A stretch of DNA of 64,000 nucleotides from Clostridiales bacterium Firm_14 (GTDB taxonomy: Bacteria > Bacillota > Clostridia > Saccharofermentanales > Saccharofermentanaceae). A program made the position numbers and the translations under genes. The stretch lies in NCBI GenBank assembly GCA_001604135.1, contig LVAT01000009.1:62001-126000 (forward strand), read 5' to 3'. The number at the start of each line of letters is the position of its first letter. Positions within the stretch are counted from its first letter, which is position 1. Of this stretch, positions 21,512 to 24,989 are shown one piece after another. The notes under the pieces were generated by a model, which was not told where the DNA came from, did no database searches, and was given only the letters and a program-made list of their open reading frames with translations.

Positions 21512-21547
21512 GAGCCGCCTCAACAGGGGCGGCTCTTTAATCTTTTT
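21512..21547 (+). terminator. Terminator of the pnt operon
   Basis: GAGCCGCC (21512-21519) and GGCGGCTC (21528-21535) form a perfect 8-bp stem, followed by TTTAATCTTTTTT. It overlaps the end of the convergent PAP2-like gene. Confidence 0.85.
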
Positions 21548-22348: not shown

Positions 22349-23656
22349 TCAAACCTGATTGACCGTTCCGATGAAGACCGGAGTCATTGTTTTTACGTCT
22401 ACGATCGCATAAACGTACGGTCTGTCGCAGAATATCTCTTTGCTTACAGATTCAATGGTCTCGCCCTTGGTACGCACTGTTACTGCCGTTGCGGCAGAAG
22501 CCTTTGTGCCGATATTGTCGACTTCGATATGAGTCTTGTGGATTACCCTTGAAACATACAGGTCGCCGGGTTTGCCCGAAATGCCGGAGAGGTCAGCTTT
22601 TCCCTCTTCGAAGATATCGGTTACGCCGAGATTCATAAGCGTATCGTTTGCCAGGAAGCTGAAATCAGACTTGAACTCAGGCATTTTTGTGACGGTCAGT
22701 CCGCTTTGTACGCCGTCTTCTACAAGCGCTTTGTAATCTTCATATGTGAAGTTCTTTGCGAACTCGTTGGCACTGATGCTCTCATCTTTGGGAAGGATCG
22801 CAAGGAAAGCATACTGTCCGCCCGTATACATCTTCTTGAAGGCTGTCGCCTTATCGCTCTCGTAATAGACGTTAAATTTGTCGTTAAGGAAGACAACCTC
22901 CTGCGTGCTGCCGTCTGATCTGCGGAATTCACCGTCACGGATCTGGGAGTTGTCATATCTGTCTTCCCACTTCGCATCGAATGAGATTGCATTTACGAGC
23001 ACCATTACCGTACGGGGCTTTAATTCATCAATGATCTCGGGGATCATGTGGTTGGTCTTCTTGTCGACCCAGGAATTTATCTCAGAAGGCGTCTTCTCGT
23101 TAAAATCCGTGACCGTGTACTCAGCAAGGAATGTCTCGCGTATATACTTCACGTAATCCATATTGACGTTGTCGCCCAGCAGCGCACCGTTATTCCAGAC
23201 AGCATTCGCACAGGAGAAATCAATATCCTTGGCATTGTTGATCTTGTCCATCATCGAAGCTGCATAAGCCTGCTGTGTAAGAGGTCCCTGCCCCTTCGCG
23301 AAAAGGTTCGTCAGCTGGTCCAATGTCTCGCCCTTTGCTCCTGCAGCAACCATATCGAGCGCCATCATGATCGATGCCGGCGAGATCATCACGTTGCCGT
23401 CGCCGCCGTTGTCCTTAAGCGTCTGGCTGAAGAGCTCGAAGCAGTATCTGTTGTACTCGGAATCCATCAGCGCCTGATCATATCCGGTCTTGCCGACCTC
23501 ATCAAAAGCGATCTCTGCCTTTATCTGGGGATCACCTACAAGACTGTGCCCGGAAGGCGCAGGAGCAGTATTATTTGATGAGCAGCCTCCGAGAAGCAGC
23601 GTTGCAGCCATTATTCCCGTCATAACCTTAATGTCTTTTTTGGAACAGAATTTCAT
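22349..23656 (-). CDS. Lipoprotein serpin 1 (predicted P1 Lys)
   Basis: A 435-residue serine-protease inhibitor. A signal peptide ends in LLLGGC, so the mature protein is lipid-anchored outside the cell. The serpin core (about 60-435) has NVMISPASIMMALDMVAAGAKGET, MVLVNAISFDAKWEDRY and the C-terminal DRPYVYAIVD. The reactive-loop hinge reads GTKASAATAV, with the small residues needed for loop insertion, so it should be inhibitory. Counting from the hinge Gly as P15 places Lys at P1, suggesting a trypsin-like target. GGAGG precedes the ATG at 23656. It follows its paralogue by 37 nt and is co-transcribed. The P1 register is inferred. Confidence 0.88.
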   Translation of the reverse strand: MKFCSKKDIKVMTGIMAATLLLGGCSSNNTAPAPSGHSLVGDPQIKAEIAFDEVGKTGYDQALMDSEYNRYCFELFSQTLKDNGGDGNVMISPASIMMALDMVAAGAKGETLDQLTNLFAKGQGPLTQQAYAASMMDKINNAKDIDFSCANAVWNNGALLGDNVNMDYVKYIRETFLAEYTVTDFNEKTPSEINSWVDKKTNHMIPEIIDELKPRTVMVLVNAISFDAKWEDRYDNSQIRDGEFRRSDGSTQEVVFLNDKFNVYYESDKATAFKKMYTGGQYAFLAILPKDESISANEFAKNFTYEDYKALVEDGVQSGLTVTKMPEFKSDFSFLANDTLMNLGVTDIFEEGKADLSGISGKPGDLYVSRVIHKTHIEVDNIGTKASAATAVTVRTKGETIESVSKEIFCDRPYVYAIVDVKTMTPVFIGTVNQV

Positions 23657-23693
23657 TTTCAAATCCTCCGTCAATGTTTTCGAGATCAGGGGA

Positions 23694-24989
23694 TCAAACC
23701 TCGTTGACCGTACCCATGAAGATCGGAGCCATTGTATTTACGTCTACGATAGCATAAACAAAAGGCCTGTCACAGTTTACGACCTTATATTCAGGCTCCT
23801 GCATTGCCATTGCATTCTCAACCGTCAGTACCGTTACAGCGGCAGCCTTAGTTCCGTGTCTGTCAACTTCGATGTGAGTCTTGTGAATGGCCTTCGATAC
23901 GACTAAGTCACCCTGTTTGCCTGCGATGCCGGAGAGGTCAGCCTTGTTGACGTCAAATACATCGCTGACGCCCAATGCCTTAAGGGGTTCGTTGATCATT
24001 ATCTCAAAATCGGACTTGAACTCAGGCATTCTGGAATGAACGTCGTATTCCGTTGTAACGCTCTTTATGAACTTCTCATAATCTTCGGCAGTAAAGTTCT
24101 TCGCAAACTCGTTGGCATTGATGCTCTCATCCGAAGGAAGGATCGCGAGGAATGCATACTCGCCGCCCTTATAAGTCTTCATGAAACCAGTTGCCTTCTC
24201 GGTCTCGAAATATCTTCCTGTCGTATCGCTTAAGAATGCCGCATTCAGCTCCTTGCCGTCAGCCATGGTAAATACGCCGTCATTGATCTGGCTGTCTTCG
24301 TATTCATCTTCCCACTTGCCGATAAAGGAGATGGCATTAACAAGGACCATGACTGTCTTAGGATCAAGCGACTGTACGGCTTTCCCGATCATCTTGTCAG
24401 TATGTTCGTAGATCCAGCTGTTGATCTCATCAGGTGTCTTATCGTCAAAGACAGTGAGCTTATATTCTGCAAGGAATGTTTCCTTAACGTAGTCAACATA
24501 CTCGACATTGACTTTGTTTCCCAGCATAGTCTCGTTATTCCAGATGGCGTTTGCGCATGTGAAATGAACGTCCCTGCTGTTGTTGATCTTATCCATGAGA
24601 GACGCCGCATAAGCCTGCTGTGTAAGAGGTCCCTGTCCTTTTGCGAAAAGGTCCGTCAGCTGCTGTAATGAATCTCCCTTTGCGCCTGCTGCAACCATGT
24701 CGAGCGCCATCATGATCGATGCCGGTGAGATCATTACGTTGCCTTCTCCGCCGTATTCCCTTACCGTCTCGCTGAAAATGTTGCAGCAATAATTCCTGTA
24801 AAGGGCATTCAGCTCATCTTCATCATATTTTGTATCAGTGACCTTGCTCAAGTTGATCTCGGTCTTTATGTTCGGATCATTTTCGAGCGGCTTCTCCTTA
24901 GCCTTGCCGATCGAACATCCTCCGAGAAGCATGGAAGCTGCCAACGCTCCGGTGATGAATTTAATGTCTTTATTTGAGCAGATCTTCAT
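23694..24989 (-). CDS. Lipoprotein serpin 2 (predicted P1 Ala)
   Basis: A 431-residue paralogue of the downstream serpin. It has a lipoprotein signal (MLLGGC), the serpin core GNVMISPASIMMALDMVAAGAKGD and DRPFVYAIVD at the C-terminus. The hinge is GTKAAAVTVL, slightly bulkier than in its neighbour. Counting Gly as P15 gives Ala at P1, predicting an elastase-like rather than trypsin-like target. The two proteins share long stretches (GQGPLTQQAYAAS) but differ sharply in the reactive loop. AGGAGGA is 8 nt upstream. First gene of the two-gene operon, it lies behind an ECF-type promoter (25029-25062) that is almost identical to the one before the ECF sigma gene. Confidence 0.88.
   Translation of the reverse strand: MKICSNKDIKFITGALAASMLLGGCSIGKAKEKPLENDPNIKTEINLSKVTDTKYDEDELNALYRNYCCNIFSETVREYGGEGNVMISPASIMMALDMVAAGAKGDSLQQLTDLFAKGQGPLTQQAYAASLMDKINNSRDVHFTCANAIWNNETMLGNKVNVEYVDYVKETFLAEYKLTVFDDKTPDEINSWIYEHTDKMIGKAVQSLDPKTVMVLVNAISFIGKWEDEYEDSQINDGVFTMADGKELNAAFLSDTTGRYFETEKATGFMKTYKGGEYAFLAILPSDESINANEFAKNFTAEDYEKFIKSVTTEYDVHSRMPEFKSDFEIMINEPLKALGVSDVFDVNKADLSGIAGKQGDLVVSKAIHKTHIEVDRHGTKAAAVTVLTVENAMAMQEPEYKVVNCDRPFVYAIVDVNTMAPIFMGTVNEV

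Follow-up and report, generated by a model that had tools for sequence, protein, structure and literature searches.

Serpin gene pair and lipoprotein signals

The window (the whole stretch of 64,000 nucleotides analysed) carried two neighbouring serpin genes on the reverse strand, named A and B in gene order, with a PAP2-like gene adjoining B. The tandem serpin pair placed at 22349-24989 by the first-pass annotation was confirmed with its coordinates, except that the start of B was moved to the ATG at 23656.

23694 to 24989, reverse strand: serpin A, first gene, 431 aa, predicted lipoprotein (PF00079, 262.8 bits); GGAGG 5' of the ATG, by eye
24915 to 24989, reverse strand: signal peptide of A with lipobox Cys25 (MKICSNKDIKFITGALAASMLLGGC), read from the sequence; Gly24 and Cys25 invariant in 37 of 37 aligned sequences
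23781 to 23855, reverse strand: reactive-loop stretch P15 to P10' of A (residues 379 to 403), counted from the hinge Gly
23811 to 23813, reverse strand: codon of P1 Ala393 of A, with the hinge Gly as P15
23657 to 23693, reverse strand: intergenic gap between A and B, 37 nt
22349 to 23656, reverse strand: serpin B, second gene, 435 aa, predicted lipoprotein (PF00079, 270.9 bits)
23582 to 23656, reverse strand: signal peptide of B with lipobox Cys25 (MKFCSKKDIKVMTGIMAATLLLGGC), read from the sequence; Gly24 and Cys25 invariant in the same 37
22436 to 22510, reverse strand: reactive-loop stretch P15 to P10' of B (residues 383 to 407), counted from the hinge Gly
22466 to 22468, reverse strand: codon of P1 Lys397 of B, with the hinge Gly as P15
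21537 to 22262, reverse strand: PAP2-like membrane protein (weak match) adjoining B downstream; PF01569, E 0.00066, below the cut-off

Opened by TTG, the frame of serpin B reached up to 23674 and encoded 441 aa. Translation likely starts at codon 7 of this frame, an ATG at 23656 that gives 435 aa, has GGAGG just 5' of it (ribosome-binding site at about 23664-23669, by eye) and yields a signal peptide resembling that of A. No terminator-like site was found in the 37-nt gap, while a terminator-like stem was located at 21512-21535, after the PAP2-like gene. By tblastn, the same PAP2-like gene was directly downstream of the last serpin in the window and in all 17 other close tandem loci. Serpins A and B would most likely be made from one transcript, which may also include the PAP2-like gene. 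A profile search of the whole genome gave no third PF00079 match, A and B being the only two.

Both signal peptides terminated in LLGGC, and two Lgt matches and one LspA match were found in the genome by profile search, providing the lipobox and the processing enzymes expected of bacterial lipoproteins. A Gram-positive lipoprotein pattern fitted 37 of 40 rows from the 18 close tandem loci and 94 of 143 in the whole set, while a looser pattern fitted 110 of 144 frames. The proposal that both serpins are lipid-anchored on the cell surface is likely from these signals, anchoring itself being predicted. The Lgt matches were at G000:C8:170357-171109 and G000:C12:84943-85698.

Serpin fold, hinge and reactive loops

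The PF00079 profile (370 positions, cut-off 27 bits) was covered from 3 to 369 in B and from 4 to 369 in A. Tengpin was the best match of both proteins in a PDB sequence search (228 bits for B, 216 bits for A) and ranked first for both in Foldseek searches with the predicted models (E 1.5e-39 for A). AlphaFold2 models, obtained with an input of 37 related sequences, reached a pTM of 0.82 (B) and 0.84 (A); apart from the first 33-35 residues and the outer loop, pLDDT did not drop below 50. In VIA, run with the B model only, tengpin again ranked first, with Z scores of 47.1 and 45.7 (2vh4_A: Z 47.1 over 369 residues, rmsd 2.6), and the alignments began at B residues 31, 52 and 55 against tengpin residues 43, 48 and 51. 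As modelled, A and B have the serpin fold. Both models drew the hinge as an inserted, latent-like strand, which is uninformative on the active state.

The hinge read GTKAAAVT in A and GTKASAAT in B, with the P15 Gly, the P14 Thr/Ser and the small residues from P12 to P9 that characterize inhibitory serpins. The published consensus from P17 to P9 is ExGTEAAAA (PMC8233489). Its P17 Glu was replaced by Arg in A and Asn in B, so that filing the two as inhibitory rests on the remaining hinge; across the set, P17 was Arg in 76, Glu in 24 and Ala in 19 of 143 rows, one of them misplaced. This row (the fourth gene of L122) was misplaced by the first hinge pattern, which affects the P17 and lipoprotein counts only; the other loop counts rest on a stricter pattern. 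The hinge G[TA]xA[AS]A fitted all 143 frames that reach the hinge (out of 144 frames, the window's two included), the pattern itself fixing P15, P12 and P10. Beyond these positions, P8 was Thr in 142 of 143 and P9 was Ala or Val in 139 of 143, while P3 to P2' varied. Past P4 the loops were hypervariable, with 134 distinct 12-mers (P6 to P6') counted among the 143. A constant spring with a variable bait has the look of inhibitory serpins, and by predicted fold and hinge A and B fit the inhibitory type. Two cysteines, C149 and C410 of B (C145 and C406 of A), were invariant across 37 aligned serpins.

The loops read GTKAAAVTVLTVENA/MAMQEPEYK in A and GTKASAATAVTVRTK/GETIESVSK in B, the slash before the residues on the right marking the predicted P1/P1' bond. 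With the hinge Gly as P15, the count bore out Ala as P1 of A and Lys as P1 of B, as first annotated. The two proteins were 59% identical (255 of 435 columns), and the loops differed more than the bodies (25% identity over the 16 codons of P6 to P10', against 60.1% in the body), in agreement with the earlier description of a shared body with a divergent loop.

The exact register of P1 was less firm. Among second genes at the 18 close tandem loci, Lys occupied position +13 in 8, +14 in 5 and neither in 5, so that P1 is known to about one residue. Alignment to solved serpins, proposed earlier as the way to fix P1, gave a loose register check only: the VIA alignments of B with cleaved miropin, a horse elastase inhibitor and a cleaved antichymotrypsin variant stopped at B residues 395-397, which are P3 to P1 by this count. 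First genes at the close loci had Ala, Gly, Asn, Thr and once Lys as P1 (Asn in the nearest relative L104, VETN/AAME); as the Ala of A is not kept in relatives, an elastase-like target rests on one residue. By count over the 143 loops, P1 was Ala in 44, Gly in 23, Lys in 20, Asn in 20, Ser in 11, Thr in 9, Glu in 6 and others in 10, and neighbouring genes differed at P1 (+14) no more than random rows did (35 of 42 differing, chance of identity 0.17). Siropin cuts located by mass spectrometry fell at the bonds that the predicted numbering labels P3-P2 and P6-P5 (PMC5127057), the alpha-1-antitrypsin loop did not restore specificity when placed on another serpin, and transplanted loops transfer specificity only partly (PMC6405850). 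Given the one-residue register, the unkept Ala, the off-site siropin cuts and the partial loop transplants, a Lys-directed B is plausible and A as an elastase inhibitor is a guess. The trypsin-like side of the contrast first drawn between the two loops, and the contrast as such, were thus retained, and the elastase-like side was weakened.

The window's own two loops have no Cys from P3 to P4'. In the loops of relatives (L058 to L157), this stretch had 69 Cys in 1001 letters, a frequency about 10 times that of the bodies (334 in 50381), and Cys occurred within it in 60 of 143 loops.

Spread, age and loop contrast of the pair

Of the 115 genomes of the family, 101 carried a serpin, as did 58 of its 62 good genomes and 159 of the 188 genomes of the order. 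The comparison covered 101 loci, the window and 100 regions chosen among the matches listed (71 from its own genus and 29 from four other genera), a sample in which weaker serpin copies are missing since it was drawn among the matches listed. These loci held 144 serpin frames including the window's two, one being a fragment lacking the hinge. Two or more serpins were present in 35 loci, on the same strand in all 35, and all neighbouring copies were within 500 nt in 30 of them. Named relatives (25 loci) were Saccharofermentans, Ruminococcaceae and other Clostridia assemblies, and one labelled Bacteroidaceae. In the latter (L056:2379-5018), a type I restriction subunit-like frame, by eye, runs into the serpin start, and the contig is probably chimeric.

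Among 24 close genomes, the tandem pair was in one stretch in 18 (window included) and spread over two contigs in G073, while five (G018, G019, G025, G033 and G076) had a single serpin among the matches listed, so the pair can be lost. The 18 close loci had at least 2 serpins and were taken from rows scoring above 540 bits against the window proteins, with L098 and L108 added by name; pair tests leave out G073 and the five single-serpin genomes. Third or fourth array copies at L108:6469-7765 and L098:3378-4079 were split over two frames or short, and would be decaying copies or assembly faults. In G073 (L085 and L113), B from about residue 100 on was 96-100% identical to the window in DNA per 50 bases, against about 70% for A and the start of B and about 87-93% for the flanks, a mosaic that may stem from chimeric assembly or from recombination at this locus.

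In a loop-masked tree of the bodies, most first genes clustered with first genes and most second genes with second genes, with several near the base unresolved; the third genes of L099 and L108 clustered with the second genes of their own locus, and two clean clades are not claimed. Recent local duplication was rejected for the window and L104, whose pairs were forced into one clade (p-AU 1.5e-12, for these two pairs only), which dates the duplication to before these two lineages separated. Gene conversion of the bodies was rejected as the rule: most genes group according to their place in the pair, whatever the genome, and the dS of 1.18 between A and B is close to the 1.35 of window A and its distant ortholog in L085. 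Gene order required 4 changes on the tree, whereas none of 500 shuffles needed fewer than 6.

The loops of first and second genes differed in charge. Over 30 tandem loci (the first two genes of each, the five loci with copies more than 500 nt apart being left out), Lys or Arg at P2/P1 occurred in 17 of the second and 2 of the first genes (Fisher 5e-5), and Asp or Glu at P3/P2 in 25 first genes and 6 second genes (Fisher 2e-6). Discordant loci were 17 second-only against 2 first-only for the basic residues, and 1 second-only against 20 first-only for the acidic ones. The 18 close loci had basic residues at P2/P1 in 1 first and 13 second genes, and acidic ones at P3/P2 in 15 first and 2 second genes. 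Among tandem loci beyond the close clade (12 in number), the acidic side was seen in 10 first against 4 second genes (p 0.04), and the basic side was non-significant (1 against 5 at P3-P1, p 0.15; 1 against 4 at P2-P1, p 0.32). Exceptions were second loops without Lys or Arg at P3-P1 in L099, L108, L114 and L117, and basic first loops in L099 (Lys) and L090 (Arg at P3).

None of these p-values takes kinship into account. The basic state could be fitted to the tree with 5 changes (6 or more in each of 500 shuffles), and the pairs independent for the contrast numbered 4 on the whole tree and 1 on supported branches. Repeated independent evolution of the contrast was unsupported, and since only one pair is independent on supported branches, the contrast is largely one inherited difference that was kept, rather than many parallel gains. 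The pair itself is old and kept in place in most close species, mostly with an acidic bait in the first gene and a basic bait in the second.

Rates of loop change differed among lineages. Between the window and L104, bodies were 84-85% identical and loops 56%, with loop dN 4-5 times body dN, yet below loop dS. Over 10 ortholog pairs (body identity 67-92%), the ratio of loop dN to body dN was 2.3-5.3 in 7 and 0.3-1.3 in the other 3, and loop dN stayed below loop dS in all 10. Three very close pairs displayed a single nonsynonymous loop change and none that was synonymous, numbers too small for a reading. For L082 and L096, the loop was better kept (94%) than the body (86%), so baits seem fast-changing in some lines and held in others. 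Positive selection in the loop was not seen by simple counting, for which 16 codons are too few.

The faster evolution of most loops, along with array copies that look broken, would agree with A and B being substrates or non-inhibitory proteins (binding or sacrificial), with a loop free to vary. This is very unlikely, as P15 to P8 are almost fixed and only the bait varies, the charge class of the loop follows gene position, and conservation of some baits equals or exceeds that of the body, as between L082 and L096.

Proposed function and candidate targets

Two lipid-anchored inhibitory serpins with different baits would act as surface traps for proteases of different cleavage preference, a reading to which we assign a probability of about 0.6. 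Both proteins would be on the outer face of this Saccharofermentans-like Clostridium, each exposing its loop as a bait for an attacking protease; once the loop is cut, the hinge would enter sheet A and the protease would be trapped at the cell surface. The bait of the first gene would be acidic and small around the cut (here VENA/MAMQ) and that of the second basic (here RTK/GETI). Serpin A would catch a protease accepting small residues, and serpin B a Lys-directed one, either trypsin-like or a Lys/Arg-cutting cysteine protease. The proposed trap depends neither on the single-serpin genomes nor on the wider lipoprotein counts. From the initial interpretation it keeps the inhibitory hinge, the lipobox with Lgt and LspA, and the conserved loop contrast; the precision of P1, the elastase specificity and the host as source of the targets are weakened.

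Known serpins share parts of this arrangement. According to its primary paper's title, miropin (Tannerella forsythia) reportedly uses different peptide bonds of its loop. It is one serpin with a broad loop, while the window has two genes with split loops; its structures aligned to the B model with Z scores of 38.9-40.5 (VIA), and a cell-surface location was suggested for this bacterial serpin (PMC4604654). Tengpin (Thermoanaerobacter tengcongensis; PDB 2pee, 2pef and 2vh4), the best sequence and structure match, has the GTKA hinge start and an N-terminal extension preceding the serpin body, as A and B do; this tail stabilises its native state (PMC8233489). In the sources tengpin is a single protein, whereas the window encodes a pair of predicted lipoproteins. 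Tengpin, miropin and the siropins belong to prokaryotic serpin Group T (PMC8233489). Siropins 1 and 2 (Eubacterium siraeum) are, like A and B, paralogues (63% identical without the signal sequence, loops 48%) and are inhibitory; unlike A and B, one is predicted to be intracellular and the other extracellular, and both hit the same elastase-like proteases (PMC5127057). The words tandem, operon and lipoprotein are absent from the main text of that paper. Rodent SERPINA arrays likewise combine tandem duplication and loop divergence, in vertebrates and with positive selection reported in the loop (PMC12646145), which was not seen for the window serpins. Bacterial tandem serpins, and Saccharofermentans or rumen serpins, did not appear among the matches listed in the open literature. 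A and B would join a known kind of serpin, to which they add an old, place-kept, contrasting pair.

Why a minority of bacteria keep serpins is described as an open goal (PMC8233489). The family studied here is serpin-rich (58 of 62 good genomes, at least 2 copies in 35 of 101 loci), with a fixed spring and hypervariable baits, and the pair is a natural experiment with one frame, one place and two baits. Should these baits catch different rumen proteases, bacterial serpins would be tied to surface defence against microbes and protozoa, beyond the host.

The titles of 25 relatives named a gut site in 7 (omasum in 3; rumen, reticulum, jejunum and rectum in 1 each); one mentioned red deer, six bore RUG (presumably rumen uncultured genome), and the remainder gave no site. 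The window is thus probably from a Clostridium of the ruminant gut. As the relatives come from that gut and often from the foregut, proteases of microbes or protozoa are no less likely to be the targets than those of the host, and nothing here points to host proteases. It is possible, at rather low odds, that A inhibits elastase and B trypsin, shielding the cell from digestive or neutrophil proteases of the host. The Ala and Lys placed at P1 by the hinge count, the jejunum and rectum titles, and the inhibition of human neutrophil elastase and proteinase 3 by siropins (PMC5127057) agree with such a role, while the P1 of first genes in close loci is not kept (A, G, N, T, once K), five of the seven titled sites (omasum, rumen or reticulum) are ahead of the pancreas, and the loop alone does not set specificity (PMC6405850). 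The first-pass view of a cell-surface shield against host or rival proteases is retained as a proposal for the shield, and its host part is weakened.

Cysteine peptidases are reported as the major bacterial type in the rumen, where protozoa feed on bacteria and express peptidases highly (PMC6908469), and SERPINB3 is a serpin controlling cysteine proteases (PMC4136820), which keeps non-host targets in front, without proof. We offer as speculation, and consider improbable, that the acidic-small and basic baits form a shield kept against two protease classes, cysteine ones included, of rumen microbes and bacterivorous protozoa, with the Cys excess in the loops of relatives tuning baits to thiol proteases or redox.

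For the surface trap, foreign proteases seem likelier targets than the cell's own. That A and B restrain proteases exported by the cell itself (a trypsin-family HtrA-like one, a large S8-containing surface protein and a papain-family one) would be distinctly unlikely. The genome has one match of each kind (S8; trypsin-family, HtrA-like by eye; C1 papain-family), while HtrA-type proteases are, to our knowledge, not classical serpin targets, and no protease family was found among the eight proteins scanned around the serpins. S8 was detected in 38 of 85 genomes of the genus, in 35 of 74 with a serpin against 3 of 11 without, so no link between serpin and S8 is evident. The only S8 match of the genome (G000:C6:200662-201120, L158) was located inside a 2169-aa open frame with an apparent signal peptide at its start and an apparent NlpC/P60-like stretch, both by eye.
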